NCBI GenBank assembly: GCA_027577595.1
Contig: JANBRJ010000101.1
Location: 1 to 59,078 of the forward strand
Direction of reading: 5' to 3'
Source of the DNA: Coemansia sp. RSA 487
Taxonomy: Eukaryota; Kickxellomycota; Kickxellomycetes; Kickxellales; Kickxellaceae
Length of the DNA stretch: 59,078 nucleotides
Both the position numbers and the translations under genes were made by a program. The notes under the pieces were generated by a model. That model did no database searches. It was given only the letters and a program-made list of their open reading frames with translations, and was not told where the DNA came from. Positions 18,915 to 58,725 of this stretch are shown piece after piece. The stretch's first letter is position 1; the number at the start of each line of letters is the position of its first letter.

Positions 18915-19517
18915 TAGCTGTGTTAAAAAAAAGGCAACTGCTGCATGTATAGCTCTCACAAAGCTACTGTATACCTTTTTTGGCTTTTGCACTTTTATCA
19001 GTTTAACCAAGAAATCAATGTTATATACCTTTGCTTGCTTGAATATAACCGCATTCTTCAGCGCAGTATATTTATCTCAGGCCCGACGTAAGTATACTTG
19101 GAGAACAGTCGAGTGAATTTTAATTACCGGCGTTTTTCCTTTTGGGATCACTTTTAAAGGTTACTACAGTTCAAGCGTATACGGCGGCAGATTTACTGCA
19201 TGGGACTCATTTTGAAGCTTTGACAAGCTTAATCTGTCGCGTATAGCTGTGGTTGGGGCGTGGTAAAAAAACTGTGAAAACACAGTACGTATACAGTGGA
19301 GCTATATTCACCACAAGCTTTCGCAACTAAGCTGCAACATAGCACGTAATAATAACAAATACAAAGACAATGAATATTTATCTTCAGCCAGCTCCCGAGA
19401 GTATAAAAGCGCCTGCAAATCCTGCTTCTTGTCTTCAAGTTACAACAACATCAAACTCACACATACTCATTCAAGCCATTGTATTCAATCGACTACTCCA
19501 ACAGCAAGCTAATCGAA
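18915..19517. promoter_or_regulatory. Intergenic region with TATA box for the Gly-Tyr-rich gene
   Basis: 603 bp. A strong TATA box, TATAAAAG, is at 19402-19409, 109 bp before the next start codon, a layout typical of inducible or very highly expressed fungal genes. Nothing else was recognised. Confidence 0.5.
19402..19409 (+). promoter_or_regulatory. TATA box of the Gly-Tyr-rich secreted protein gene
   Basis: TATAAAAG, a perfect TATA box, 109 bp before the ATG at 19518 and preceded by GC-containing sequence, the expected distance for a short 5' leader. Confidence 0.6.
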
Positions 19518-19940
19518 ATGAAATCCTTCGCTACTATTGCTACTTTGATCGCTGCAACCGCCTCCACTGTCGCTGCACAGGCTGGTGCCCAGCATATGGG
19601 CGCATCGTCACCACAGGGCGCCATGGGACCTCAGATGGGCCCTCAGATGGGCCCTCAGATGGGGTCTCAGATGGGTGGTATGGGACCTCAGATGGGCGCC
19701 GAGGGTGAGTCCCGTGCTGCTTCCGCTCCCAACGCAGGTCCTGCTGGCAGCCCTGCTGGATCCCGCGGAAAGGGAATGTGGGCCTATCCCTACTATGGTG
19801 GATATGGTGGCTACGGCGGCTATGGCGGATACGGCTACCCCTACTACGGTGGCTACGGTGGTTATGGTGGATATGGTGGATATGGTGGCTACGGTGGCTA
19901 CGGCTACCCCTACTACGGTGGCTACGGCGGCTGGTACTAG
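19518..19940 (+). CDS. Small secreted Gly-Tyr-rich repeat protein
   Basis: 140 aa, single exon, start at the ATG giving a textbook signal peptide (MKSFATIATLIAATASTVAA). The mature part has three zones: PQMG repeats at about residues 36-62, a short Ala/Ser/Pro linker to about 85, then about 50 residues made almost only of GYGG and PYYGGYGG units ending in GGWY. No domain family is recognised. The composition is similar to glycine-tyrosine-rich wall, silk-like or antimicrobial YGG peptides, but this is resemblance only. It has no cysteines after the signal peptide. A perfect TATA box 109 bp upstream suggests strong regulated expression. The + frame is preferred because only it combines signal peptide, clean repeats and a stop. 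Confidence 0.8.
   Translation: MKSFATIATLIAATASTVAAQAGAQHMGASSPQGAMGPQMGPQMGPQMGSQMGGMGPQMGAEGESRAASAPNAGPAGSPAGSRGKGMWAYPYYGGYGGYGGYGGYGYPYYGGYGGYGGYGGYGGYGGYGYPYYGGYGGWY
19628..19936 (+). repeat. Tandem short repeats inside the Gly-Tyr-rich gene
   Basis: Two kinds of in-frame coding repeat. Near 19628-19700 a 12-nt unit, CCTCAGATGGGC, recurs and gives PQMG. From 19791 to 19936, 6- to 9-nt GGTTATGGTGGA-like units recur and give GYGG. A near-identical block encoding YPYYGGYGG occurs three times. Such repeats change number easily by slippage. Confidence 0.8.
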
Positions 19941-20715: not shown

Positions 20716-23700
20716 CTAGTTTCCTTGTTGGCGTTTCTCCAGCTCTTGTGCAATGCATTGGTTGATAAAATCGCGGCGAGACTTCTCTTCGTCCACAGAC
20801 ATGCCAAAGTTTGCCATGATCTGCTGGCGAACCTGCTTTTTGGTGATGGTCATCAAGTCCGTCGTGGCGATAATCTCATTAACTCGCGCGGCTACATGCT
20901 CGTCAGTAACTCCCGAGGGCCATTGTTGCTGATGTTTCTGGTACTGTCCTTGAGCTCCAGCTGGCGATCCAGGGGGAGAAACAAAATCAGCAAGCACGCT
21001 TGGTCCAACGTCGAGCTGGCTAAGCATTGCTGTCGACTGGTCAGCTCCTCCACTTGCCATGAGTGCGGGGCTGTTGTTGTAGGACGACATCAGGTACGGC
21101 TGCGAACCGGCCATTGACAGAGCCATGTTGTTTGCAACCATTGGCGAATATGCAGCGGAGAGGCGTTGATCTGGCATACCAGCTCCCTGCGGGAAGATAA
21201 ACCCACCTGCGCTGACTTGGCTGAGGCGTGGATCCATATGCGCACTTGGCATCGGCATTTGAATTTGGCCAGCTCCAGACACTCCCATGGAGCCGCTCAT
21301 TGCGGTCATTTCATAAGCATTGGGCGGCATGGCACCTGAATTCATATAGTCGAATGTACCGGCATTGTTGACAGAGATGTTGTTGTTAGCCATTGCGCTG
21401 TAGCCATAGCCGTTATCGTAATAGACAGAGTTTGTTCCATAGTTGGATGCAGCATACCCTGCCATCGACTTGGGAATATTCCCTGTGGCCGATCCAGGCC
21501 GGTTTGGCATTGCAGCGGCGCCACTGAAGCGCGAACCGGTTTCGGATGCGGCGTACTGAGACTTTGGTTCTTCCAACAGATCCTGCTCATACTCTGACCA
21601 TTTGCGCATCGGAATGGTTGACTTGTCAAACTTTTCGTTATCGACAGTATAGACATGCTTGCGCCCAGACTCTCCAACAACCACACGCGTGTTTCCCCAT
21701 GAAAAGTCGTCGAAATGCCAGAATGCGTAGATCGGAATAAGGAAGGAAAACAGCGGAATTGCGATCAGATACACGATCATCCAACCGATATGTTGCCACT
21801 GACGCTTCAAGATAAAGATGAGTGCCTGCATGCCATATATAGCCGCCAAGAGGTACAACGAGATGTAGGAGGTTGTCGAGTCGGGGTTCGTCAGCTGGTA
21901 GATTAGGTATGCCAGGTAAACCAGTGTCGCAGGCATAATGACTGTGGTTATAAGATCGATAAACACAACAAACCGCATCGAGAAGCAGCAGAAGCCGCAT
22001 AGCCGCGGAAGCAGTATCAGCTCAAAAAGGTTGTGCACAGTCGAGTTGATCCAGCGACGACGTTGCGACAAAAGAACGCTGAGCTGATCTGGCGCATTGG
22101 TCATGCACTTTGCAGAATGGTTGAACTTGTTCTTGTAGAACGGATGGTGCTTGAGGATAAGCGTGGTCAGGTATCGATCTTCACCAAGGTGCAATAGATT
22201 CTTCTCGTGGAGCGTATCGACGCGGTTTATCGAGTAGTCGTCGATTACCTGGTTTGAAATGAGCAGTGGCTTTACTGTTCCTTGAGCCCCATCAGGGCTG
22301 CGCAGACGATACATGCTAAAACAACCAGGCAAGCAAGTAACAGATCCAAACAGCGACTCGAATGCCTTTGTCAGATGATGAGAAATAAAGTACTCATAGA
22401 CTTGCATCATCGTGATCCATGAGTCTTTGGAATTAGCAAGCGTAGTTTCGCCACAGATTCCGATAATCTTGGTGTCATGGTTCATCGAGCCCACCAAGCG
22501 CGCAAGGGAATCGGGGAAAACGACGGTGTCAGCATCAATCATAAGCACAAACTCGTACAAGGACGGGTCGACACCAATGACATTCTTAATTTGGTGGCAG
22601 ATTTCGAGCTCCATCGGAGTCATAGGTAGGTCAAAGAATACCTTGTTCAAGAAGCGCATCAGTAGAATCTGGGTGTCGCGTTTGCCACGGTTTCCTGGCC
22701 GCGTGCGCTCTTGGGGCGTGCCGCACTTGACAACAACCAAGTATGGTACAACATGGCCCTTGAACTCGTAAAGACCAGAGTAAATCTTGCCCATGTTGTG
22801 TTCCTTTGACCCTTCGCCAAGCGCAATGTAGCTTAGCGCCTCCGGCTCTTGGTCGCTGCTAACACCCAAAATATCCAGCACAATGCGAGGGGTTGGCCTG
22901 TCGTTTCCGGAGCCCATGATCATTCCGTCGCACACAATAAATATAAGCTTGCGCTTGTCGTCATATTTGAGCTGGGCAAGCGAATCGATTGTGTGCTTCA
23001 GGGAATCCTCGCCTTCGGTGTAGCAGGGGACATTGCAGATCACAAAGTTTGTTCCGGGCTCGGGATCGCGCCGGGTGCCAAACTGCAGAGCAGCAACAAA
23101 CTTGACAAAGATGATAAGCACGAGTGCAATCGAACCCGCAAGCAAAAGGTAGTTGGCCGCATAGCATCTTGCAGACTTGCGCATGTCGACCTTGCCAACA
23201 TAAAAGGCGCCGCGCAAGCACTGGGTGTGCAGTGCCTTCGAGTTCAGGTCGTTGGCAAAGTATCTATCCCACATATCGCTAATGTCGCTACCCGGATACT
23301 GATCAAACATGGTGACGACGTCATTATCAAGGAAGGTGCGCTTAAAGCTGCTGGAGTTGCTCTGTCCCTCGGGAACAACAACAAAGTTGGGTCCATCTGA
23401 ACCTATGTAGTCCGAAAGATCGTATATCTGTCCATGGATAATACAGCGACGAAGATTGTGTCCTTCCGCGTTTTTGGAGTTTCCGTTACCTTCCTTTTTT
23501 AGCTCCTTTGGATCAACAGCGATATGCCCCTTTGAGTGGTTCTCGCGCATCAGTCTCATAAGACGAAACTGATAGTAGTTGTACCCCTCTGCGCTCGGAT
23601 GGCGCCACCAGCGATGGTCGTGGTAGAACCCGGCCGAGTAGAGATCGGGTTTGTACTGGAAGCTGAGTCGGGGATCGAGACCCTCGAACGGACAAACAAA

Positions 23701-26700
23701 CGAAAGCTGGTACGGAAATTTTTCCGACAGGTCCATTCCAAGGTAGTTGTGCTTCGATAGGTAATCAAAACTAACCTGCATATGGTTAAAGTCTTTGATA
23801 TCGAAAACCTCGCCTCGTATCGCAATAAGCGCATCCTTATCGGTGTTGTGCGATCCTAGCTCTGCGGCGGAATACACATGCTGCTTTGGACACAGAATAA
23901 GCCCAAGCCCAACAATCCAGAAGACCACAAACACGCAGCTCCAGAAAATGATCAAACACAGAGCAACCTTTTCACGCCAAGCAATGCGCTGGTCGTGGCG
24001 CTTGATCCGCCCGCACCACCCCAATAAAGATGACGGAATAAGCCAGGTGCAGAGCCACACAAAAGCAAGCCAGATCTTGCGTTCGGTTGATGCAGGGGAT
24101 TCAGGCTCATCGTCCGCGTCCTTCTGCGCAGCAGCAGCAGCAGCAGCAGCATCCGCGGTGCCCTTTTTGATAGATCCGGACCGACTTCCAGAGCGTGGCG
24201 ATGTATTGGTGGCGTACCTCGCGTTGAAGTCGCGGTCACTCAGAATGTCAGAAGCCCCGTCACGCATGCCCATATCGTGGTAGGCGTCATCGTCCGAATA
24301 GTACGATCTTACGTCCCCACCACCGCCAAACATGCGTCCCTTGAGCGTGCGTACATGCTGAGCTGCCGCATCCGGGCCGGCAGCCATCCGGCCTGGAGGC
24401 TGTGCATTGAGCATAAGGTTGGCCTCGGACTGGTCGCCATAGCTAGCGGCCGATAAGTCCATGCCGTCGACGATCGGGCTCATTTCGCCGGCATGCTGCT
24501 GGAGGTCTTTGGACTCCTTGTAGCCAGCACGCTGATTGTCCATATCCATGCGCTCCATGCCGCGAATTGGATCATCAAGGCGTCTCCAGGCAGCAAAGCT
24601 TAGAAACACCTTTGTTCTACCAATCGCCATGTCCGCGTCTGGAAGCTGAAGCGCAGTTTTCAGCGCAGTGGCTCTTGTGTAGTCGTCGGTTATCGACGAC
24701 GCATCTGGAACGTACTCCTCAATAACCATCTTGTAGCGTTGGCAAATGTCAGCTACGCCAAGGACTGCTGAGTATTCAGCGGTCTTTCGGGCGGCCATTG
24801 CGCTTAGATCTAGACCACTGGTCTGTGCCTGGATGCGTCGAGGGTCGACGGACCGAGGCCGCCCTTGGTCATTGGGCTTTATGCAGAGCACAAACCAGGG
24901 GAGCGTCTCGTCAATGGTCATGATCATCTCGTTCAGAGCACGCTGGAGCTGCGTGGCAACACAGTCAACCTTTGCAAAGTGAGAGGCGCTTCTTGTGTTT
25001 GGTCTTTTCATTGTCGGCGCACGCGTTGGCACCGAGGGCGCTTGTGCTTGTACGATTGCTTTTTCATCCTTGGGGTGAACCTCTGTAGCAAGCGTCTTGC
25101 TTGAGAAAAGACCGCCAACAAAGCTATTGTCGGTGCCGGGGTTTGTGGTAGAGCCGTCGCCGCGGAATACCGAAACAAAGTCAGAGCTAAGCTGATCAAG
25201 GTTCTTCTCGACAAAGTCGTCGATGGTGTATGTGACGCTGCCCCAGAAATGGGAGATGGCGAAGCTGTTCAGCTCGTTCTTGCTTTCGCTGGGAGAATAG
25301 TAGGGGTTGGCATCGCCAATCCGCTTGTCGTGCATTCGGTTGAACGCCTTAAGAAGCTGGCTACTAGCCTCGCGCTCGGGGACGTTGGCATCGAACTCGC
25401 GCTGGGCCGACGAGCCTCTCCTCTTATTCTTCTTTTTGTCGACCTGCAGGTACTCGGCGGCCTGACGGTCCATAACAGCAAACAGCCCAGACCTTGGCTT
25501 CATAAACAGATCAAGGCAAACGGAGCGGTCAGTGAACGACACAGCAGGCATAGCAGCCGCAACACCTTCGTCTGCATATTCGCTGTTTCCTGCCTCGAAT
25601 ATCTGGTGGAACAAAAAGTGATGCAGGCGCTCGTTGGCATAGTTGCTGCAGAACTGCTCGTAGCTATTTTGGCGGGCAACATGCCATCCAGGAAAATCTA
25701 CAAGGCCAATAAAGTTCTGGTATTCGTTATCGTCCTTGCAAAGTTTGGAGTTGAGGAATTCGACAAGCCAGTTGAAGAGCAGCGAGTAGAGCGAGCGGGC
25801 AAGGTCGTCTCTGCGAGCTGCCGCACCGTCGGCATCCAGATACACGGTAAACTTGTCGCTTCCGATCTGCTTCGTCTTGATAGAGAAAAGAGACACCAAG
25901 GTATCAGCGGGGAGGCCAAGCAGAGAGGCCACATGGTCGGCTACGTCCTGGTTGCGCACAGTCGCAGCGCTTTCCTCGCCGTTCTTCTGATACTGGAACT
26001 GCAGATTCCCAAGTGAAAGGATGGACGCCAGAACGGAAAATATGTGGCGGCGGTACTTCTGGTTGAGACCAACGTTGCCCATGGCGTCGACGAGCTCCTG
26101 GAAGCGATCGGCATCGCTAAAGTCGGCAATGCGCTGCACCGTGCCCGGGCGGCTGAGGTACTCAAATGCAGGGTGCATAAGGCCATAGTCGGGCCGGTCC
26201 TCGGCGGCGGCGCCGTTTGCCAGGTAGTAGAAGACGTGGAAGCTGCGCTCCCCCTGCGGAACATGGGTCACGCGGCTCTTTTCCAGGAGGTACGTGAGCG
26301 TCTTTGCGCCGACGGTACGGCCGCGATGGTCAAACTGGATCTCGATATACGACCCCAGGCGGGAGCCGTTGTTGTGCGCGGCTGTCTTTGCATGCGTGAA
26401 TGCCTCAAGAACAATGTCGGCATTCTGTATACGCGCGTAGAGGCGCGAGTCCTTCTTGGAGTGGGCGCGTATCAGCGACAGGAAGCGGGTGACCAGCCGG
26501 CGCTGCTCCGTCTTTCCACTGCCCGAAGCACCGCTAAAGAACACAGACAGATGTTCCAAAAGAAAAAGACAGCGGCAGAACACATGCATCTTAGCAAAAG
26601 TGGCTTATTCTTCAAGCATTATGGACAGCAAAAGCCTACGGATATTTCGGGGTTGCAAGTGTATTCTGGTTGTGCTACTTACAGGAACGTGATGCTTTGG

Positions 26701-27785: not shown

Positions 27786-30700
27786 TCAAAGTCGCTCGCT
27801 CAGGACTTCATCTATGCAGAGATTGATAAACGACTTGCGTGCATTGAGCTCCTCCTGGTCCATGTTGCATTCCTGCGCGACCTGCTGGCGGACCTGTTTT
27901 TTGGTGACAAGCATAAGGTCGACTGTGCTGAGAATGCGCCGCACAGATTGCATAAGGACTTCGTTGGGCATCCCAGATGGGAACTGAACCAGCGGCCCAC
28001 TCTCGGCAGCGGGGCCATGGATAGCTTGGGCCGGCAGAGGTGGCGGCTGCATTGACATCGGCATCGGCTGCCCCTGGACATCCGGCATGTTGTAGCGGGG
28101 ATTGCTGGCGAAGCCCATGCCAGCGACAGACCCGTCGCACGGAATGTCACCGCCGGCCATGCTCATCGGGATGTTGACGTGTGGGTTGTGCGCGATCTGC
28201 ATGTTGGCGCCGGCTCCCTGGTGGTACCCGTAGTTCCCGGCGCCATACACCGAGCCAGCCGCAGAGCCTGGGCGTGGCGGACCAAAGTACATGCTTGCGC
28301 GGCTGCTCATCTCGCTGCGCAGGTCATCCATGTTGTGTGCCTTTTCCAGGCCGCCACACATGATTTCCTGCTCGTAGTCGTCCCACTTGCGCAGCGGTAT
28401 TGTCGCTGGATCGAACTCTTCAACCTCAGCAATGTACTTTGCTTTCTTGCCGTCGCTAACAACCATGCGTGTGTTGCCCCAGGAGAAGTCGTCAAAGTGC
28501 CAGAACGCATAGATGGGGATGAAGAACGAAAACACGGGCATCGCCAGGAGATACACGATCATCCACCCGATGTGCTGCCACTGGCGCTTGAACACAAACA
28601 GCAGCGCCTGCAGGCCATACACCGCGGCTAGGAGATACACCGACACAAGCGGCGTGTCAGATGTGCTCACGGCAAGCTGGTAGATGAGATATCCCAGGTA
28701 CACGACCGTTGCCGGCATGACGACTGTCGACACCAGGTCAATAAACACAATGAAGCGCATCGAGAAGCAGCAGAACCCGCACAGCCGAGGCAAAAACACA
28801 AGCTCAAGCAAGTTGTGCACAGTTGAGTTGATCCAGCGGCGGCGCTGGGACAAAAGCACCTGCCATGTGTCTGGGGCATTTGTCTTGCACTGTGCGTCCG
28901 AGGTAAACTTCATCTTGTAGTACGGGTGGTGTTTGAGCATCAGCGTGGTCAGGTACCGGTCCTCGCCCAGATGCAGCAGGTTCTTCTTGTGCAGCGTGTC
29001 GACGTTGTTCTCCGAATAGTCCTTGACGATGCTGTTCGACACAAGCAGCGGGTAGTTTGACTCTGGCGCTCTGATGCGGTACATGCAGAAGCAGCCAGGC
29101 AAGCAGGTAACCGAGCCAAACAGCGACTCGAATGCCTTGCTGAGATGATGCGAAATGTAATACTCGTAGACCTGGATCATTGTGATCCAGGTGTCCTTTT
29201 CGTTGGCAAGCTGCGTCTCGCCGCAGATGCCCATCAGCTTCGAGTCGTGCAGCATGCAGGAGACCATGCGGTTGAGCGAGTCGGGGAACACATACGTGTC
29301 GGCGTCGACCATCATGATGAACTCGTAGAACGCAGGGTTGACGCCAATCACGTTCTTGATCTGGTGGTAGATCTCCAGCTCCAGCGGCGACATTGGCAGG
29401 TTGAAGTGCACATTGTTGAAGAAGCGCATCAGGATGATCTGCGAGTCGCGCTTCCCGCGGTTGCCCTGGCGCATGCGCTCTCGCGGGGTTCCGCACTTGA
29501 CGACGACAACGTAGGGCACAACGTGTCCGGCTGCCTCGAACAGCCCCGAGTACACCTTGCCCATGTTGTGCTGCCTGGTACCCTCGCCGAGCGAGAGGAA
29601 GCTCAGCGGCTCTGGGTCAATGTCGGGGTCGGACCCCAGTATGTCGAGCGCAATGCGCGGAGTCGGCCTGTCATTGCCCGACCCAACAATCATTCCGTCG
29701 CATATGACAAACAGCAGCTTGCGCTTGTCGTCGTAGTGGAGCGTAGCTAGTGACTCCAGCGTAGACTGCAGCCCTTCCTCGCCCTCCGTGTAGCAGGGCA
29801 CGTTGCAAATGATAAACTTGTCATGCTCTTCGGGCTCACGGCGGCTCCCCAGCTGCAATGCAGCCAGGAACTTGAAGAAGATGATGCTTGTAAGTGCAAC
29901 CGAGCTTGCAAGGAGAACGTAGTTTGCAAAGTAGCACTGGAACGACTTTCTCTTGTCGACGACGCCAACATAAAATGCGCCGCGCAGGCACTGGTAGTGC
30001 AGCCTGCGCGCAACCGGCCGCTTGGCAAAGTAGCGGTTCCACTTGTCGGTGATGTCCTGGCCAGGATGCATCTGGAACATGTTGTGCACGCCGTCATCCA
30101 GAAACATGCGCGAGCTGGTCTCGTTGGCTCTTCCATCCGGCGCAACAACAAACGGTGCCCCACGGCGCTGGATGTACTCGGAGAGGTCGAAAACCTCGTT
30201 GTTGATTATGGACCAGTACCTCCTCATTCCACTAGGCAGGCCGATGCCCTTTCCCTCCATTTCGACGCGCTGGGGCTCGGTCGCGATCTTGCCACGGTAG
30301 TAGTTATCACGCATGATCCGCATGAGACGGTACTGGTAGTAGTTGTAGCCACCCTCGACCATTTCAGGATGGCGCCAGAAGCGGTGGTCGTGCAGCCACG
30401 CCTCTGTGTACGGCCCTGGCTTTGGCGACAACGCCAGGCGTGGGTCAAGGCCTGGGAATGGACAGACAAAGGACAACTGGAGCGGGAACTTGTCGCTCAT
30501 GTCACTGCCCGGATAGTTGTTGTCGACAAGATACTTGCTGTTGACGCCCATATGATTGAACCCCTCTATGTCAAACACCTCGCCACGGATTGCTATCAGA
30601 GCATCGTCCGCCGTGTTATGGCCGCGCATCTCCTCGATTGTGTGCACATGCTGCTTTGGACATATGAGCAAACCAAGGACCGCGATCCAGAAAATAATCA

Positions 30701-33594
30701 CACAGCAGCAGAGAAAGATCAGCGCGCAAAGCGCAACCTTTTCGCGCCATGCAACGCGCTGGTCTCTCCGCTTGAGTTTGGCACAGCATGACAGGAACGG
30801 CGACGGCATCCACCAGGTGAACAGCCATACGAGAACAAGCCAGTACTTCCGCGAAGGGGCCATCTTTTTTGATGCGTCCTCGGCTTCCTTCTCTTCTTCA
30901 ACGACCGGGCTCTCTACGCGGTCGACCTTCAGATCGCCCTCCTTTCCGCTTGGGCGGTCAGACTGCGTGTCGTCAAAGGTCTTTTCATCGTCGCCCGCTG
31001 TTGACGCCCTGCTGCCAGGCTGTCTATCGCCGTGTGCCAGGTTTATCTGCGCCTGGTGCTCCTGGAAGGCTGCAGTGTAGTCAAGAAGGCTTGCGATATC
31101 ATCCTCGTCCTGCGCAGCGTTCTCTGGGAACAACTCTATTCCGTCGTCCTCGTATACAGACTGCAGGTCTTCGGCTGGCGTTGGACTTGACTTACCCGCC
31201 TTTATGCCCGCAACAAGCAGACGCTCACGCTCGCGAAGCGGATCCTCGAGCTGGCGCCAGGCATTAAAGCTCAGAAACGCCTTCTTTTTTCCGATTGCCA
31301 TGTCGCTGTCATCCCAGCCCATTGCACGACGCAGGGCCTCACAGCGCTCGACCGAGCTGGTCTTCTCCTTTGTCCGCACATACTTCTTTATGGCAACATT
31401 ATAGCGCGAGACAAGGTCGTCATGCAGCAATGACGCAGTGAACTCGACGTTTTTGGCGCGGGCTATATCCACGAGCCCGGCAGATGCAAGCTGCCTTTGG
31501 ACGTGCTCCTTTTCCCAGGTGCGAGCCTCTTGCTGGTCGTTAGGGTTGATGCAGTAGACAAACCACGGCAGCGTTTCGTCCAGAGAGGAAATAAGCTGCG
31601 TCAGCGCACGCTGGTACTGCGAGACAACACACGTAATCTTGCGCTTCTTCTGGGCTTTGGGCTGGCTCGTCCACGGCGCGCGCAGCGGCATCATTGACTG
31701 CTGGGCGTTGATGATAGCACTCTCCAGGCGCGGATGGCCCTCGACAACTATCATACGGTCATCGAGCATGCGTGCCATAAACGGGTTGATTGTTGCTGGG
31801 GAATCGCCCATCGAGATGCCGCGGAACAGCGTGTAGAAGTCGACACCAAGATAGTCGATGTTGTTGTCAGCGAACTGGCTGATCGAGTAGCTAACCGTGC
31901 AGGCAAAGTGGCGAATGCCAAACTCACCCTGGCGTCGGGATTTCGAGTACCAGGGCTCGGACCCTGGCTTGGTCTTGCCAGAGTGCTGGTGCGCGTCATC
32001 GAAAAGCTCGATTAGTTTTGCATCTCCTTCGCTTCCGCTTTTGGAGTTGCGGTTCTTTTCCTTCTTGCTGGCCTTGGTGAACTTGTCCATGACGAACAGG
32101 AGGCCGCTGCCCGATTTCATAAACAAGTCGAGACAGCCGGTGTTGTCTCTGTGGGTGGCAGAGCTGAGTATATGGTCAACACCCTCCAACACGTATTCCT
32201 CCTTGCCCACATCGAAAATGTGGTGGTTCATGAAGTGGTGGATGCGCTCGTTTGCATAATTGTAAATGAACTGCTCGTAGTGGTTGCGCTTCTGGCACTG
32301 AAATCCGGGAAGGTCCAAAAGCCCAATGTGGCTGCTGTAGACGCCCTGGTCGCAGATCAGCTTGCTGTTTATCTTCTCAAGCAGCCAGCTAAACAGAAGC
32401 GAGTAGAGGTGACGGGCTAGCGCATCGCAGCGAGAGCGTGATCCTTGCGAGTCTAGGAACACAGTGCACAGCTCGCGACCAATCATTTTAGTGTGGTATG
32501 TCACGGCCTGCTGTAGGCTTGCCGAGTCCACACCCAGAAGCAGCGCGACATGGTCCAGCAGATCCACGTTTTTGATGTAGGCCGCCTCGGCAACAGTTGC
32601 ATCTTTTTGGTTTTCGAGCTGCAGATCCCCCAGGCCGAGGATCGCAGCAAGGACCTGGAAGATGCACTCTTGGTACTTTTCGCGGATCCCCAGCGAATGC
32701 ATGGCTGAGCGAAGGTCCTCAAACTGCATGGCGTCGTCAACGCCAGGGAGACGTTGGATCGTGCCAGGGCGATTGAGGTACTCGTAGCTTGATTGGGTCA
32801 GCCCAAAGAGGGAGCGCTCGTCCGACTTCACGCCGTGGACAAGGTAGTGGAAAACGTGGTAGTTTCTCTCGTTGTCAGGGACGCTGGTTACGCGGTTGCG
32901 ATCAAGCATGTAGTCGCAGTACTTTGCGCCGGCAATGCGCCCAAGCTCGTCAAACTGGAGCTCTGTGTAAATCCCAACTCGGGAGGCATTGGGATGGCTG
33001 GTGGTCTTTGCATTCCCAAACGCCTCGAGAACAATCTCAGCTTCGATGATCTTGTCGAATACCTGCGTGTCTCTCCTCGCATGCGGACGAAGAAAAGACA
33101 GCATGCGTATGGCAAGACGCTTGGCCTCAGATTTCCCCGTGCCTGTCTCGCCACTACAAAATGTGCAGCCATTTAGCCAAAACAAAAAATCAGCAATTAA
33201 AACGATCCTGCAAATAGCCAATGGGATAAAAATGTGTGCTCTCGATTATGCTATACACAGGCACTTACGAAAATACCAGCGATTGGTTTAGCCCCGTTTG
33301 TCTCATATGGAGGTAGGCATTCGCAGCAACACCAAACACATGTGGAGCCACGCCTCTACGCTTTCCAGAGGTGTTGCGATAATCCTCTGCGTAAACAGCA
33401 GCAGCCGCATCGCTCTGAGACTCGAGAGCCTCGTAGGGATTGACCGATACTAGGAATCGAGTACCCAAGTAGGTGAATGTTTGCGGTTCGGGGTTTGTCG
33501 AAAACCTTGCTTCGAGCTTGTTTGCAAGCTCTTCGGCGGAAAGCGACACGCCATCATTGTAGCGAGCTACGTCGTCGCTTGATGATGGCTCCAT
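27786..33594 (-). CDS. Myosin-motor chitin synthase, copy B (class V/VII type)
   Basis: Paralogue of copy A with the same plan. Exons 33594-33269 and 33153-27786 (115-nt intron), 1897 aa. Motor with P-loop GETGTGKSE at 110-118, switch I NASRVGIYTEL and switch II DLPGFQ; membrane spans; cytochrome-b5-like segment (IAIRGEVFDIEGFNHM); GT2 core with DADTYVFPD, EDRYL and QRRRW (near 1545); terminal DEK_C-like domain. The intron cuts the gene at the same codon position and phase as in copy A, immediately before the P-loop, proving common descent by duplication. The ATG at 33594 is the first in frame. The motor-synthase linker is shorter than in copy A. In ascomycetes the class V and VII genes are usually divergent neighbours; here they are head-to-tail. 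Confidence 0.95.
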
Positions 33595-38771: not shown

Positions 38772-39061
38772 GCGGTGCTGGCGTACGTATGAAGATCACC
38801 AAATGCTTTCATTTCTGGAACCTGCTTTTCTGGTTATATTATCGATGCCTGAGTATCATGTATACATACTGCGCCACCTTTAAGGATAATAACTATTAGC
38901 ATCTGGCTAAATGGAACTAAAAAAGAACAGACTTTTTTTTAACAGAAAGTAAATTGCGTGAATAATAGATAAGCTAAAAAAGATGCAGAGAAACGGGCTT
39001 ATCCATTTGCAATTGTATCAAAGTTGAAAAGAGAACATTTTGTGAAATTACACTGCTACTA
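38772..39061. other. 3' flank of MFS gene up to the transposon
   Basis: 290 bp, AT-rich, ending in TA (39060-39061), which serves as target dinucleotide for the Tc1/mariner element that begins at 39062. Confidence 0.5.
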
Positions 39062-40046
39062 CAGTGGTGTGCCAATGTTTTTCACGTATAATGTATGAAT
39101 CTTGTCTGCAAAGGAGTGTTTCCTTGTTATTGTGTGTTGAGTATCTTGTTAATTCCCTGGAAAATATGTTTCAAAATTCCCCACAAATTTTCAATCGGTC
39201 TGAGGTTAGGAAAATTCGCTAGCCATGTTGCTTTTTAATATGTTGCAACCGACGATATCCACAGGAAGTATTTGATATATGCATATGAGCATTGTCTTCT
39301 ACAGCTGTTGGGAGACTGCTGCTTTTCATTAAAGTTTCCGGCTGATGCTTATATGCTTCTTCATTTAATACCTCACTAGTCACTGGCTTTTCTCTGAAAA
39401 CAACAAAGTCAGTATACCCGCTGTAAAGGACGCCACCTTACACGTCAAGAGAACGGCCACCTAGTTTGGTGGTGCTAACCATATTATATCTATCAAGCTC
39501 AGTTTTTATATTGCTTTAGGGTGCTTGACTGACCCAGGCTGAGCTGAAATGTGCTTTCATCAGCGAATATAAGATGTTTCATCTGTTTATCGATAATACA
39601 TGGCTTCTTCCCTACTACCCTAGAAAAAATGCCTTCATCGTTCAGAATCTTTCCAACGTACTAGTGACAAATATCGAAGTCTAAATCTCTTACGATTTGG
39701 TTGTTTGCTATACAAGGTTCTGTCATTGCTGTATTCACAATGAAATGTCTTGTATATTCATCAAAATGCTTGATCAAGGTTTATATAGTTCGCACAAACA
39801 AGCCTAAATATTCAGCCATTATTTGAAGATAAAGGCATTGACCCTTCTTGATAACTTATTTTCTAATAGATAATGGACAAGTCATGGTTTATATAGTTTA
39901 CAAGAATCCAGACAAACGATAAGAGAAGAAAGCTGCAAAAGTCATTTTAGAAGAATTCCAAAGAAAATATTAATCAAGGTTACATAGAAAACAAAAACAT
40001 TTGCTCCATATTGTCTAAAAGGGGGGAAAACATCGGCTCACCACTG
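39062..40046 (-). mobile_element. Decayed Tc1/mariner DNA transposon with both terminal inverted repeats
   Basis: 985 bp. Left end CAGTGGTGTGCCAATGTTTT follows a TA; the right end read inward is CAGTGGTGAGCCGATGTTTT. The first 24 bases match at 20 positions. On the right the TA (40048-40049) is one base away. Between them the - strand keeps pieces of a transposase: DEGIFSRVVGKKP and LIFADESTFQL near 39540-39650, GGVLYSGYTDFVVF near 39410-39440, VEDNAHMHIS near 39275-39305, and WLANFPNLRPIENLWG near 39180-39230. These hold the three acidic residues, spaced as DD34E once one lost base near 39232 is allowed for. There are several stops and frame changes, so it is dead. It is too short for a full element; the N-terminal DNA-binding part is mostly gone. 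Confidence 0.88.
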
Positions 40047-40079
40047 CTACTATTTCCAGCAAGCTTACGCGCACCGACC

Positions 40080-53270: not shown

Positions 53271-53744
53271 TCAGCGGAAGTGGATCTCGCTGTGATCAAC
53301 GTTGTAGGCTTCACGTTCGACCCTTGCGCGCTCGAGATGCTTCTCTCCAGAAGTGGTGGCCCCGGCTTTGCACTGGACGAATCCGATCATGCCATACGCA
53401 TTTGCGCGGTACAAGCTTGCGCTCTTTTTATTATACGTCTGTAAAAATGCGTCACGAATGTGCTGCCGCTTCTCCTCGGGGTTATCTTCAACGAGCGTGG
53501 TATTTATATAGTTCTGGGGATTTAGCTCGCCATCTGTGGAGATATGAACGCTGGCAGCAACTGGCTCCCCTGTCTTGGGATCGCGGTGTCCGAGTCCGTG
53601 TCCGATATAACGAGGGTCATTCCAATCGGCAATAAGAGGATATCCTCCAGCTTCAGAAAGCCCATTCTCTTTGTCAATGTCTGATGCCGCCTTAATCCCC
53701 GTGCCAGCTCCGGTGCCAACTATCTTGATAGGGCCTGCGCTCAT
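53271..53744 (-). CDS. Hypothetical soluble protein, 157 aa
   Basis: Single exon, start MSAGPIKIVGTG. Balanced, globular-looking composition with charged helices near the C-terminus (EDNPEEKRQHIRDAFLQTYN), no signal peptide, no membrane span and one Cys. I do not recognise a family. The protein-like composition and the absence of low complexity argue for a real gene. It converges with UTP12 (138 bp between stops) and lies 318 bp beyond the Fanzor stop codon on the same strand. Confidence 0.65.
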   Translation of the reverse strand: MSAGPIKIVGTGAGTGIKAASDIDKENGLSEAGGYPLIADWNDPRYIGHGLGHRDPKTGEPVAASVHISTDGELNPQNYINTTLVEDNPEEKRQHIRDAFLQTYNKKSASLYRANAYGMIGFVQCKAGATTSGEKHLERARVEREAYNVDHSEIHFR

Positions 53745-54002
53745 GAGCTTTTTACTTTGCAGTCACTTGTGTCCAATATAAAAACAACAGTTAAAGAACG
53801 TTCTGGCAAACGTAGCAAGAAAAGAATAATTGTAGAAACAAAAGAAGCTGCTTCCTTGAAAGCCTAAGATGCGCACCCGTTTGTGAGAAAAAAATATTGA
53901 TCATATGTTTTAGCCCAACAATGCTTGGTGCCACCAATGCCGATGACCTCCGATTGCCACTAACATGTGATAACCAAAGCCTTGTATCTGGCATTAATTT
54001 CC
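53745..54002. other. Intergenic DNA between the orphan gene and the Fanzor hairpins
   Basis: 258 bp holding the promoter of the 157-aa gene. If the Fanzor mobile unit ends at the hairpins, this is its flanking target DNA and the source of the guide; that is inference only. Confidence 0.35.
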
Positions 54003-54044
54003 GCCCAGAACGGTTCTGGGCAGCTGGAGTGCTATAGCACCCAG
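54003..54044 (-). ncRNA. Candidate Fanzor guide-RNA scaffold: two adjacent hairpins
   Basis: Immediately 3' of the Fanzor gene (18 bp past its stop codon) lie two strong inverted repeats. The first, 54003-54021, is GCCCAGAAC-G-GTTCTGGGC, folding as a 7-bp stem with loop ACGGT. The second, 54024-54044, is a stem of CTGG/CCAG plus GTGC/GCAC with a TATA loop and one bulged A. In TnpB and Fanzor systems the guide RNA is made from the gene's 3' end and element end, with stem-loops next to the guide. Position and strand fit; I have no transcript or conservation data, so a simple terminator-like or element-end structure is possible. Confidence 0.35.
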
Positions 54045-54062
54045 GGAAAAATATGGTTGATG

Positions 54063-56315
54063 TTAAGACTGCTGCTGCGATGTCGCTGAGCGGAGCTTCA
54101 TTCTGGGCTGCAATGTCGCTGAACGGGGCTTTTTTCTGGGCTGCGTAGAGCCACTGGAAGGCCTTTTGGCGCCTCTCGCGGGTTTCTTGGTCTTCTTTGC
54201 TGGCGGAAGAGTGGTGCCACGCCTAAAACGCTCAGGCTTCTTGTGTGTTTGGCGCAGACTATGGAGGGTATGCCTGAAATTCAATACAGCAGCAAGATCT
54301 CTGTTCCAAAACCGAGCAACAGGCGCTTTCCCGAGATAGCTAGCAGGCTTTATGCTATCTGCCACGTACTCCACACATTTTTTGTTTTGACACATTAGGA
54401 GTCCATGGCAAATAACATACTCACGCCTATTCTCTTTCGGGTAGGGCCTTGGGTTTGGAACCAGCTCTTCAGGATGCACAAGCCTGTCTTCGCAACAACC
54501 AGGGCAGAAAGTCGAGGAACGGAATTCGTCCAACAGGTACACTTTGAACCCATGCGTTCGCAACATCCTACGCATGCCTACACCCTGGATGGGCTCATGG
54601 TACTTGCACATGCCAGCAGACCAATTCCCAAGAACCAGGACAGGATCAGGGCCAAACTGTTCATGGATAAGGTTGGCAAGGACATGGTCTGCCCTTTGGT
54701 TGTTAAGGTAGGCTGCCAGACGCAGCTGCCGATGAAGCGGTTTCTTGTTCATTGTGCTGTTTGTCTGTGTGCAGGAATAGAACTTGCTCAGAAGGGGCCA
54801 CACCTCAGCCTGGACCTCAATGAACCTCTTGAACTCATCAGGGTCGACAGTGGTGCATGAAACCTCAGCCAGACGCTGCTCTGCCTTGATGATGGCATTA
54901 TCAGGGTACATCTTCTTGGCTGCTTCAAGGATCTTGCGGAACTTGGTAGAGCGAGTGAGCTTGGCCTTGTGATTGCGCGTAAACCGGAATAGCCATGGGT
55001 TCCCAATGGAGCTGTACTCATGCATGCAGAACAGAAGGTCCCTCCTGCCTGGGTCGATTAGCACACAGTTACCTTCCATTGCACACAGCTTGTCTTGGTC
55101 GATTGATTCAATGTATTCAAACTCGAATTTGTCTTTGTCCTTGCCCTTCTTGGTCTTTGGTATCTTGGTCATGGCAGTACTGGCAGATTCAGGTGTCTTG
55201 ATGTCGCTGGTCTGGTCTGTGCTGTTGTTGGTTTTCTTCTTGACCTTGCACTTCTTGAAAATAGAGACTGACACACCGTCTGTCTGAACTGAGCCTTCAA
55301 ACACCTTGCCACCCTGTTTGCTCTTGATTGCCCGGCAGTTTATGTCAAGGACCTCACCCCAAAGGCCATTCGTAAGCTTCTGTCCCTTCTTAGTGCCACC
55401 AAGAAACCACTGACAAAGGATAGTCTTATCAATGTGGACATGGCATGGGATCCACTGTGTGCGAAGTGGCATGCATTGGAAGCTACGGGGCTTGTTTTGC
55501 TGGAAGAAGCGAGCCAGAAGAAAGAAGGTTTTGACGTGCTTGGCAGGGTCGCACTTGATGTCATAGTAGAGACCCTTTTCGCTAGGCGCATTATTTTCGT
55601 AGACGTAGAGTACTGATTGAAGTTCCTTGACCCGTTCGTAAATGTGTGCATCTAGTTCAGATTCAACAATCTTGCCACGCTCAACACATTTCTTGGCCTT
55701 GTCTGCTGGCCCCCACACCTTGGCTCTTAGGGTATCGCTAATAGTATCAGCTGATATGCCAGCAGCCTTGAGTTCGATCCGCTTGGCAAGTGCTTCGGCT
55801 TTAGACCTACAGAGCATGTTGACAGCTCCACGTAGGCGGTTTCCAAGGTTATTTTTAACAGATACGAGGAACGCAGTATGTATCTTTTGGGCTTCATACC
55901 CAACAACTTGAGCCATGTATGGCTGTTTTTGTTGCTTGATATGTGACGCCTGTGCATATGTATCCCAATGTTTTGCTATAAGGGTTCGAAACTCTGCTGT
56001 ATCTGGCTGGTCGCTTTGTGCTTCTGCTTTAGATTTCTTTGTCTTTTTCCGCGCACTGCCAACAGCCCTGGTTTTTCCACCATTGACTTTCAAGATGACC
56101 TCCCTGAAAAAGGGAACACAGACATAGCGGTCGAGCTTGAAATCAATGTCCTCATGAAGCTCGTTTATAAATATCCAGCGAGAAAGGTTATAAGAATGGC
56201 GGGTGTTGTAGTTTGTTGTTTTGACAAGCTTTCGAAGAGGCGGTTGGTACTTGCGACGCCAGCTGACAGCCTGCAAAGGAACCTTGACAACACACACCTC
56301 GTCGTTGCGTGCCAT
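54063..56315 (-). CDS. Fanzor: eukaryotic TnpB-like RNA-guided DNA endonuclease (Fanzor1-like)
   Basis: Homologue of the IS200/IS605 TnpB nucleases found in fungi, protists and giant viruses; characterised members cut DNA with a guide RNA from the element end. 750 aa, single uninterrupted exon from MARNDEV. A long N-terminal region (1-400, with a lysine-rich insert at 355-397) is followed by a RuvC fold: motif I CVLIDPGRRDLLF with Asp421; motif II region VLVLGNWSAG without the usual Glu; then YLLDEFRSSTFCPGCC, where Glu597 fits the 'rearranged' catalytic Glu described for Fanzors; zinc ligands Cys604, 607, 642 and 647; motif III FWNRDLAAVLNF with Asp673. The tail (691-745) is rich in Lys/Arg/Pro and looks like a nuclear localisation signal. 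All three catalytic acidic residues are present. The lack of introns, where most neighbours have them, fits a mobile origin. Element ends are not defined. Confidence 0.9.
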   Translation of the reverse strand: MARNDEVCVVKVPLQAVSWRRKYQPPLRKLVKTTNYNTRHSYNLSRWIFINELHEDIDFKLDRYVCVPFFREVILKVNGGKTRAVGSARKKTKKSKAEAQSDQPDTAEFRTLIAKHWDTYAQASHIKQQKQPYMAQVVGYEAQKIHTAFLVSVKNNLGNRLRGAVNMLCRSKAEALAKRIELKAAGISADTISDTLRAKVWGPADKAKKCVERGKIVESELDAHIYERVKELQSVLYVYENNAPSEKGLYYDIKCDPAKHVKTFFLLARFFQQNKPRSFQCMPLRTQWIPCHVHIDKTILCQWFLGGTKKGQKLTNGLWGEVLDINCRAIKSKQGGKVFEGSVQTDGVSVSIFKKCKVKKKTNNSTDQTSDIKTPESASTAMTKIPKTKKGKDKDKFEFEYIESIDQDKLCAMEGNCVLIDPGRRDLLFCMHEYSSIGNPWLFRFTRNHKAKLTRSTKFRKILEAAKKMYPDNAIIKAEQRLAEVSCTTVDPDEFKRFIEVQAEVWPLLSKFYSCTQTNSTMNKKPLHRQLRLAAYLNNQRADHVLANLIHEQFGPDPVLVLGNWSAGMCKYHEPIQGVGMRRMLRTHGFKVYLLDEFRSSTFCPGCCEDRLVHPEELVPNPRPYPKENRREYVICHGLLMCQNKKCVEYVADSIKPASYLGKAPVARFWNRDLAAVLNFRHTLHSLRQTHKKPERFRRGTTLPPAKKTKKPARGAKRPSSGSTQPRKKPRSATLQPRMKLRSATSQQQS
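54078..54143 (-). repeat. 33-bp tandem duplication in the Fanzor C-terminal tail
   Basis: Two adjacent 33-bp units, 54078-54110 and 54111-54143, differing at a few bases. They encode the repeated basic tail QPRKKPRSATL and QPRMKLRSATS just before the stop codon, so the frame is kept. Confidence 0.85.
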
Positions 56316-57064
56316 CGGAGATGTGTGTGTTGAAATAAAAGGAAAAGATGAGGTTAAAGTGAGTTTTTGTAGGTTTAGTAACTAATAAGAAAATGTAGCT
56401 GCAATACAAGGAAAAGGACTTTTTCTCTACTCTGTAGTTATTTCCTAGGGGAAATAGCTTTTTTTTTCTTGTGATAGGAAGGCAAGTTCTCTCCCATCCG
56501 TTTTTTCGTTTCTCGATTATTTTTTGTAGATATATCTCTTTTTATCAGATTGTATTTATTTTTTGCGGCACATGTATCAAGGGGAAGCATATGCAACATG
56601 GCGGAGGCACGAATGCCCTCAACAAACACACTTTCCTTTTCAACGCTTCTTTCTCTTTCTTGTTTTTAACTGTTATCAACGCTGTTCGTTTTCTGTCTGT
56701 TCTAAGCATTACCTATTTGCTCTTCAGATATTAGCTCTTCCTTCTATTTCCGTTAACTGATGTTTGCTTGCTCTCTTTTGTAACTAGCATCTTTTATGCA
56801 TTCTTATTTTTTGTCTTTTTTCTTTGATCTTTCCATGTCGTTTGTTTTGCAAGTTAATAAATATAATCTATATCACACTTCAAGCAAGAGTAAGTCACAC
56901 TAGCAGCGTCTACACAGGACAACCACACAAACGCTACAACTTCATTTGTTAAAAGGTGCAACAAAGAAAGCAACATATACAGAGCACAGCTACTGAGCTA
57001 GCATCTGGTGGTGGGTGGTGTGCTGGCTAGAAAAGCTGGTGGAGTTTCCGTATGAGCGATAGTA
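56316..57064. promoter_or_regulatory. Region upstream of Fanzor
   Basis: 749 bp, T-rich, presumably the Fanzor promoter and the other element end. A near-palindrome, ATTTCC-TAGG-GGAAAT, is at 56445-56460, but I found no match to the hairpins on the other side and no terminal inverted repeat or target duplication bracketing the gene. The TA at 57063-57064 is the target site of the MITE that follows. Confidence 0.4.
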
Positions 57065-57267
57065 CAGCGGTGAGCCGGCGTTTATTCTGCTCAACCTTTA
57101 AATATTAGCTCATTCTCTCCAGTTCCTTGTCTTTTGTAAACCAATAAAAGACAGCAGCGCATACTTGCTGTTTCTACAAACATTGCATGTTTATCATATC
57201 TTTGCCATGTCGCAGTTAAAAGAAACAATAAATATACTGAAAGTGAAATAACATTGGCTCACCACTG
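57065..57267. mobile_element. MITE sharing its inverted repeats with the Tc1/mariner relic
   Basis: 203 bp with TA on both sides (57063-57064 and 57268-57269). Left end CAGCGGTGAGCCGGCGTT; right end read inward CAGTGGTGAGCCAATGTT: 14 of 18 bases match, and the four differences are all C/T or G/A transitions. The same repeat, CAGTGGTG[A/T]GCC[A/G]ATGTT, ends the transposase relic at 39062-40046. The inside is AT-rich and non-coding. So it is a non-autonomous derivative, mobilised in the past by that transposon family. Confidence 0.85.
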
Positions 57268-57359
57268 TATTTACATTGTGAAAACCCATCGTTTGCATTG
57301 TGTAGTGTAAGCGGTGCTCAAGAAGTTATTTATTTATTATGCGGTATAAAGCTGAATAT

Positions 57360-57831
57360 CTACACAAGCAGAGCTACCAACAGTATTGCAACAACAAAAA
57401 GCTTGGTAACAGAGACGTGACTACTTGCTGCATTCACATGTAGACCTCTACACGTGTATCTTCTATGATTCATACATACGGTTGTGGCATTGAATGTGTA
57501 CACGTCTTTGTCCATCCTTGTACAAACAACCTCGCCTGCTGCTTTGAAATACTTCATAAACTCGGTATTGTGCTCCGTTTTGCAGTAGCACTGCATCAAC
57601 AGCCGCTGCTGCTTGCTGGCAAATTGATGGCAAGATGTGATCTCCTGGCCAGATTTTAAATTATACAGTTCGGGATTCATAATGTCTTGTGATAGGATAT
57701 GATAAATATCAAAAAAAAACGGAAAATGTATAACGCGACTAAATTTTCTTGCTTGGAAGAAGCAATGCAGATAGTAACAAGAGAGAAAATGAAAGTTGAA
57801 AGGAGTGGGATACGTTTTGGAGTTTGAGCAT
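57360..57831 (-). CDS. Putative GPI-anchored cysteine-rich surface protein
   Basis: Unknown small secreted protein. Supported part: SCHQFASKQQRLLMQCYC... through six cysteines to SSHVSVTKLFVVAILLVALLV, a C-terminal hydrophobic run directly before the stop, typical of a GPI-anchor signal. A matching signal peptide (MLKLQNVSHSFQLSFSLLLL) starts at 57831 in another frame. A 67-nt intron, 57752-57686, with a GC donor (GCAAGA) and CAAG acceptor joins them in phase to give 134 aa. A GC donor is also inferred in the AARSD1-like gene. Without the splice a single frame of 188 aa from 57926 exists, but its N-terminus is low-complexity Phe/His/Tyr. The cysteines are arranged C-(18)-CxC-...-C-...-C-...-C. 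Family not recognised. Confidence 0.6.
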
Positions 57832-58725
57832 TGATAAAGGAAGGTGCAAACAAAGCCTACTATATGCGTATGAATAAATGGAAAGTAAGGAACATGCACT
57901 TTTGATAGCGTGTTTGCGAGGATCAAACATTAGGAATTGTACATGTCTTAAGCCTTACAAATACTGAGTAATATTATTTTCAAAACAGGCCAATAACAAC
58001 CCGGAATGAGCATACGTATTATTATTTCACAGACTCACTGAAAACTAGAAATTCATGGCCAGAAAATGATGGACTTGTAATGTGTGATCTGCGTTTATTA
58101 AAATATTTGATTATAACCGGCAAATTATAAAGCAAAAGCGCTTTTGGAAGAAAAATAGCTTCCAAAAAAGAGACAACTTTGCACCTGTACTTGTTGCCAT
58201 AAACTGACGATTGGGACATGCTTGGAAGGCTACAATATATCTTATTTTTAGCTCATTGTAAATTTCTTTTACCAACACAATGAACCTTGTGGAACAGAAA
58301 TCAAGATTTCTGATTATGAATATTTTTAAACAAGCAGGTTGGGTACTTGTGGATTTTTCTTTGCCTTTCTTTTCAAAAATTACTGGCACAAAGATGTTGG
58401 GAAAAGGGGAGGGAGGGAGAACGAGAGAGCACCAATATGCGTATAATTACTGCTTCTACTCAGAACGCCAGCTTCGTTGTCACTTTGCGCGTTCTAACAA
58501 ACAAATTGTATTTATACGGCACCTTCTGGCCTGCAAACGAGGCTGTTACGTTTCATTCATTGCGCATATTTCCCCATTTACTTTCTCATATTTCCACCCA
58601 TTTGTCATATCTCCTTGTCTCGCATTTCATAGCCTACAAACATATAGTCGCGCATCGCATTTCTATTAGCATTGTTCTCCATTTACCGAAACACCGCTTG
58701 TTGACACACAGCAGTTATCGTCATC
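57832..58725. promoter_or_regulatory. Divergent intergenic region before the SOD-like gene
   Basis: 894 bp, AT-rich, between two genes for secreted proteins that point away from each other. Sequence near 58390-58430 is G-rich (ggggagggaggg), then pyrimidine-rich to 58720. No coding frame is supported. Confidence 0.4.

Follow-up and report, generated by a model that had tools for sequence, protein, structure and literature searches.

An intact gene for a very probable Fanzor1 RNA-guided nuclease among ordinary genes of Coemansia sp. RSA 487

An uninterrupted open reading frame of Coemansia sp. RSA 487, located on the minus strand near one end of the window (the whole 59,078-nucleotide stretch of DNA that was analyzed), is very probably a Fanzor1 gene whose product works as an RNA-guided nuclease, as judged from its sequence and that of its relatives. 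The frame runs from ATG to the stop codon over 750 residues with no internal stop in the translation, and the plus-strand frame over the same positions, 54063-56315, contains many stops. The initial annotation, in which the strand was absent, had described an intact Fanzor in a fungal genome, encoded by a 750-residue frame with neither a stop nor a frame break; its coordinates are correct, and the protein can be specified as a Fanzor1 by the matches among PDB chains and the alignment of all the catalytic residues. The features of the gene and its 3′ flank are compiled in Table 1.

Table 1. Positions in the window of the Fanzor1 reading frame and of its assigned, predicted, or candidate features.
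Feature	Position	Strand	Remark
Fanzor1 ORF, 750 aa, single unbroken frame	54063..56315	-	PpFz1 E 5.5e-97, SpuFz1 E 3.2e-37
TDG motif, Fanzor1 wedge domain, residues 345-347	55275..55283	-	invariant in three-sequence alignment
Asp421, predicted RuvC-I catalytic aspartate in DPG	55053..55055	-	aligned with SpuFz1 Asp383
Glu597, predicted shifted RuvC-II glutamate	54525..54527	-	aligned with SpuFz1 Glu541
Cys4 zinc site C604, C607, C642, C647	54375..54506	-	four Cys invariant with PpFz1 and SpuFz1
Asp673, predicted RuvC-III catalytic aspartate in WNRD	54297..54299	-	aligned with SpuFz1 Asp606
C-terminal extension, residues 700-750, Lys/Arg-rich	54066..54218	-	beyond PpFz1-aligned part
Candidate omega-RNA scaffold, two adjacent hairpins	54000..54050	-	-27.2 kcal/mol, just 3′ of stop

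In a single-sequence search of all PDB chains, the best match by far was PpFz1 from Parasitella parasitica (PDB entry IDs, 9cf0-9cf3; E-value, 5.5e-97; aligned blocks, residues 7-517 and 528-699), followed by SpuFz1 from Spizellomyces punctatus (PDB entry ID, 8gkh; E-value, 3.2e-37), and no further molecule appeared up to an E-value of 1. A chance resemblance is out of question because of the value obtained for PpFz1. The window protein is identical to PpFz1 in 37% of the aligned columns and to SpuFz1 in 31% of the part that aligns. A three-sequence profile additionally retrieved the much more distant relative GtFz1 from Guillardia theta (PDB entry ID, 9cer; E-value, 1.4e-13), and no PDB chain outside Fanzor1 up to an E-value of 0.1. 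TnpB, Cas12, and Fanzor2, which have the RuvC and zinc-ribbon plan in common with the window protein according to the literature, gave no match among the PDB chains searched, either with the single sequence (to an E-value of 1) or with the profile (to 0.1). The family assignment is based on this ranking of scores among PDB chains. The profile comparison suggested along with the initial annotation was made against PDB chains, which were matched exclusively by way of Fanzor1, and against Pfam, NCBIfam, and PHROGs, from which no family was obtained: the protein reached no family up to an E-value of 1 in Pfam and PHROGs, and the sole match in NCBIfam, to acylphosphatase (E-value, 0.16), is far under its cut-off. 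Because no Pfam family reached an E-value of 1, the zinc ribbon is recognized by its cysteines and the alignment, not by a Pfam profile; OrfB_Zn_ribbon (pfam07282) gave no match to this value despite the presence of all four Cys, its profile possibly being too distant. No relative was found in phage records or in three contig scans, two of IMG/VR and one of prokaryote genomes, which used a few peptide patterns (6, 2, and 2) and can miss relatives.

The numbering of Asp421, Glu597, and Asp673 in the initial annotation is correct, the first residue of IDPGRRD being 420, that of DEFRSS 596, and that of NRDLAAVLN 671. A single-sequence structure prediction had a mean pLDDT of only 34.3, and the active site was therefore judged by alignment alone. 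For this purpose, the numbering of the SpuFz1 chain in PDB was converted to that of the protein by an offset of 394, derived from the chain length of 1032 and a protein length that we take to be 638. With this offset, all three catalytic residues of SpuFz1 fall exactly on their published numbers, D383, E541, and D606 (PMC11423790), and they are matched one to one by Asp421, Glu597, and Asp673 of the window protein. The active-site alignment proposed as a check with the initial annotation is thereby passed. The Cys4 site that had been noted is present too, with the spacings C604-x2-C607 and C642-x4-C647, and at none of its four positions do the aligned window protein, PpFz1, and SpuFz1 differ. 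Six residues separate Glu597 from C604, the first zinc Cys. In PMC10711439, DPG together with a Glu six residues ahead of the zinc motif is described as a molecular fingerprint of Fanzors, and TDG in the wedge domain as a characteristic of Fanzor1; the fingerprint is found here as D421-P-G and E597 located six residues ahead of C604. The consensus of Bao and Jurka, D-X(125-275)-[TS][TS]-x-x-C4 zinc-X(5-50)-RD (PMC3627910), is also found, when counted by hand, as D421, 178 residues, S600-S601, two residues, C604/C607/C642/C647, 24 residues, and R672-D673.

The window protein shares with PpFz1 the order of the motifs, the RuvC triad, the zinc site, and the DPGRRD and WNRD sequences. Compared with PpFz1, it has in addition a basic insertion at around residues 355-400, some ten extra residues following the zinc site, and a basic tail of 51 residues. 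On the other hand, residues 986-1095 of the PpFz1 chain (~110 residues between the two aligned blocks), which include the FRI, have no counterpart in the window protein, where residues 517-528 bridge the gap. The FRI is a cyclophilin-binding RuvC insertion of about 100 amino acids in PpFz1, reported only in Parasitella and Rhizopus in PMC11423790, in which PpFz1 is termed a notable exception. The absence of the FRI is the common state of Fanzor1 and no oddity. The third catalytic residue, Asn in GtFz1 (PMC11423790), is Asp in the window protein. The C-terminal tail is absent from the PpFz1 and SpuFz1 chains, both of which stop at most 5 residues past the aligned part, and is encoded in part by a 33-bp tandem repeat (54074-54144). 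The nuclear-localisation-like tail of the initial annotation is present as a stretch of 51 residues rich in Lys and Arg, and from this composition we infer that it may serve in nuclear localisation. In every respect tested, the window protein is a clean addition to the described Fanzor1 family and not a novel variant.

By its relatedness, the product of the ORF is probably an active Fanzor1, and its binding of a guide RNA and cutting of DNA are proposed by analogy with solved and tested relatives, among which PpFz1 is reported to cleave in vitro and SpuFz1 to perform RNA-guided cleavage (PMC11423790). The protein would bind a short structured omega-RNA whose template lies immediately 3′ of the gene, and about 15 nt at the variable 3′ end of this RNA would act as the guide. 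The REC and wedge domains would then recognize a short target-adjacent motif, and the RuvC site composed of Asp421, Glu597, and Asp673 would cut the DNA.

On the coding strand, base pairing starts about 18 nt past the stop codon and forms two adjacent hairpins (8 and 10 pairs), which are a candidate for the scaffold of such an omega-RNA, and no more than that. Folding of this region gave a z-score of -4.6, with none of 200 shuffles reaching an energy as low, for a region picked after the hairpins had been seen. When the 320 nt that follow each of 14 genes were compared, a set that includes the Fanzor gene itself and some flanks running into neighbouring genes, the most stable 60-nt stretch was found in the Fanzor flank (-27.2 kcal/mol), the next one being that of SET1 (-24.2 kcal/mol). 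In a GC-corrected scan of 5900 80-nt segments on both strands, the hairpin site ranked 25 and its complementary strand 12; because the complementary strand ranks above the coding strand, the stability leaves the strand undecided. The entire 318-nt 3′ flank is unexceptional (z-score, -1.5; 9 of 100 shuffles as stable), and nowhere in the window was the gathering score of an Rfam family reached. The omega-RNA of S. punctatus derives from the region that separates the stop codon from the right inverted repeat and has 88-90 nt, with 14-15 variable nucleotides at its 3′ end (PMC10432273), and that of PpFz1 contains two stem loops in a length of 75 nt (PMC11423790).

Another hairpin, the basal part of which consists of about 21 pairs including G-U ones, is formed within the coding sequence at the zinc site (54341-54420, minus strand). 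It ranked first of the 5900 segments for its GC content (z-score, -5.5), and its stability was reached by 0 of 400 synonymous shuffles for the region fixed afterwards. When equally stable segments anywhere in the Fanzor gene were counted, they occurred in 15 of 150 synonymous shuffles (115 of 150 for the WDR3 control), and on this gene-wide count the hairpin was set aside as a functional RNA.

The codon use and GC3 (0.553) of the Fanzor1 ORF are inside the range of a host set of 12 other window genes (GC3, 0.45 to 0.73), chosen as long uninterrupted ORFs with Pfam domains. The surroundings are composed of ordinary genes, as had been noted initially; a Pfam scan of 20 window ORFs, 6 of which gave no match, identified a WDR3/Utp12-type protein, a Cu/Zn superoxide dismutase, two myosin-motor chitin synthases, a SET-domain protein, an NXF1-like protein, and others. 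The description of the Fanzor gene as intronless is true and uninformative, since several genes around it also consist of one long ORF. Among them are both chitin synthases and WDR3, whose two propellers and Utp12 domain are encoded without interruption, so that an intronless Fanzor gene is ordinary here. The two myosin-motor chitin synthase genes are arranged in tandem on the minus strand (20716-26589 and 27786-33221), encoding 1957 and 1811 residues in one uninterrupted frame each, and their fusion of myosin motor and chitin synthase with a DEK_C domain identifies the genome as fungal. A tandem repeat rich in TAYGGNGGN units at 19784-19927 would translate as a Gly/Tyr-rich stretch; the frame in this repeat region (19407-19940) has no Pfam match.

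It is most likely that the Fanzor1 gene would have entered the genome as the cargo of a DNA transposon, the ends of which are now unrecognizable or lack clear inverted repeats. The alternatives considered below concern the present status of the gene in the genome and are compatible with its Fanzor1 identity and mechanism. The first of them, that a recently moved and still mobile non-autonomous element carries only the Fanzor1 gene, is possible, if on the doubtful side. It has precedents in the Spu-1 elements and in the MuDR-like elements of Rhizopus, Phycomyces, and Mucor, and would agree with the fully intact ORF and with the frequent location of fungal Fanzor1 genes within multi-copy elements (PMC3627910, PMC10432273). 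The element that carries SpuFz1 is present in multiple copies and has inverted repeats of 30 nt (PMC10432273), whereas none were found around the window gene. The Fanzor gene occupies an interval of ~3.6 kb between a 157-aa ORF (53271-53744) and a 188-aa ORF (57360-57926), both without a Pfam match. The best flanking ungapped inverted repeat, with 11-bp arms at 53830-53840 and 57169-57179, had an equal or better counterpart in 21% of 200 shuffles, as had the best gapped one in 10% of 300; both were rejected as transposon ends and speak against a still mobile element. With wider flanks, the best ungapped arm was equalled or exceeded in 67% of 60 shuffles and the gapped one in 35% of 100, and leaving out the short element at 57063-57269 again gave 10% of 300 shuffles in the gapped search. 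The gapped test is able to see such ends, because for each of two elements whose ends had been located independently of it, 1 of 300 shuffles did as well.

Also against a still mobile element, no second or ghost copy of the Fanzor gene was detected by blastn and tblastn elsewhere in the 59-kb window, where the best DNA match, of 27 bp, falls on one end of the short 57063-57269 element. No transposase was matched by six further ORFs of the interval (104-151 aa, each overlapping the Fanzor gene partly or wholly), which gave TetR_C as the one sub-threshold match (E-value, 0.026), and no recombinase, such as the one of IS607, was present among the Pfam families of the 20 window ORFs and these six ORFs (the best 25 families in the case of two WD40 proteins). 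The suggestion in the initial annotation of recent movement or host use finds no support, with one copy visible; recent movement in particular is unsupported because neither flanking inverted repeats above chance nor a transposase match was obtained.

The short element at 57063-57269 is 207 bp long, precedes the Fanzor start codon by ~750 bp, and has the inverted ends TACAGYGGTGAGCC...GGCTCACCACTGTA; the TA at their outer edge would be compatible with the target site of Tc1/mariner-type elements. Ends of the type TACAGTGGTGAGCC (57063 and 57256) were rejected as the right end of a Fanzor element, since the two copies pair with each other and delimit a separate short element, and the only match of this type between WDR3 and the Fanzor stop codon (up to 7 mismatches in 20), at 53443, is in the wrong orientation. 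A decayed element of ~1 kb (39060-40048), located between genes for an MFS protein and a mitochondrial carrier, has nearly identical ends, with the final TA missing on the right. A short frame within it reads like what we take to be a Tc1 transposase motif, PIENLWGILK, and two pieces of this element gave no Pfam match. The 157-aa ORF (minus strand), which separates WDR3 from the Fanzor gene, has host-like codon use.

Domestication of the Fanzor1, in which the host keeps the gene for cellular use after the transposon has lost its ends, appears unlikely; the intact ORF, the host-like codon use, the ordinary gene neighbourhood, and the lack of recognizable transposon ends or a transposase would be consistent with it, but missing ends are also expected of elements without inverted repeats. 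It is similarly improbable that the gene was recently silenced through the loss of its expression or of a working guide RNA with the frame left intact, as the 750 codons without a stop or frameshift and the retention of all the compared catalytic and zinc residues argue against such a loss, even if the failure to find transposon ends would suit it. Least expected is a stand-alone Fanzor1 retained by the host for cellular use, having its own omega-RNA hairpins and lacking transposon ends and the FRI, which, if true, might, for instance, cut incoming or repeated DNA.

The preferred reading, a probably active Fanzor1 that would have arrived as transposon cargo, has its setting in earlier surveys, in which Fanzor1 genes were listed in 2013 for Rhizopus, Mucor, Phycomyces, Spizellomyces, and Allomyces (PMC3627910) and again for early-diverging fungi in 2023 (Saito et al., PMC10432273). 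Because of these listings, the picture of Fanzors is unchanged by the window gene alone. No literature naming Fanzor together with Zoopagomycota or Mucoromycota was found, and papers may use genus names instead. Fanzors are compact programmable nucleases of eukaryotes, the natural role of which is unsettled, and the window protein, being intact, 37% identical to the closest solved Fanzor, devoid of the FRI, and accompanied by a candidate guide scaffold, would be a reasonable choice for an activity assay.
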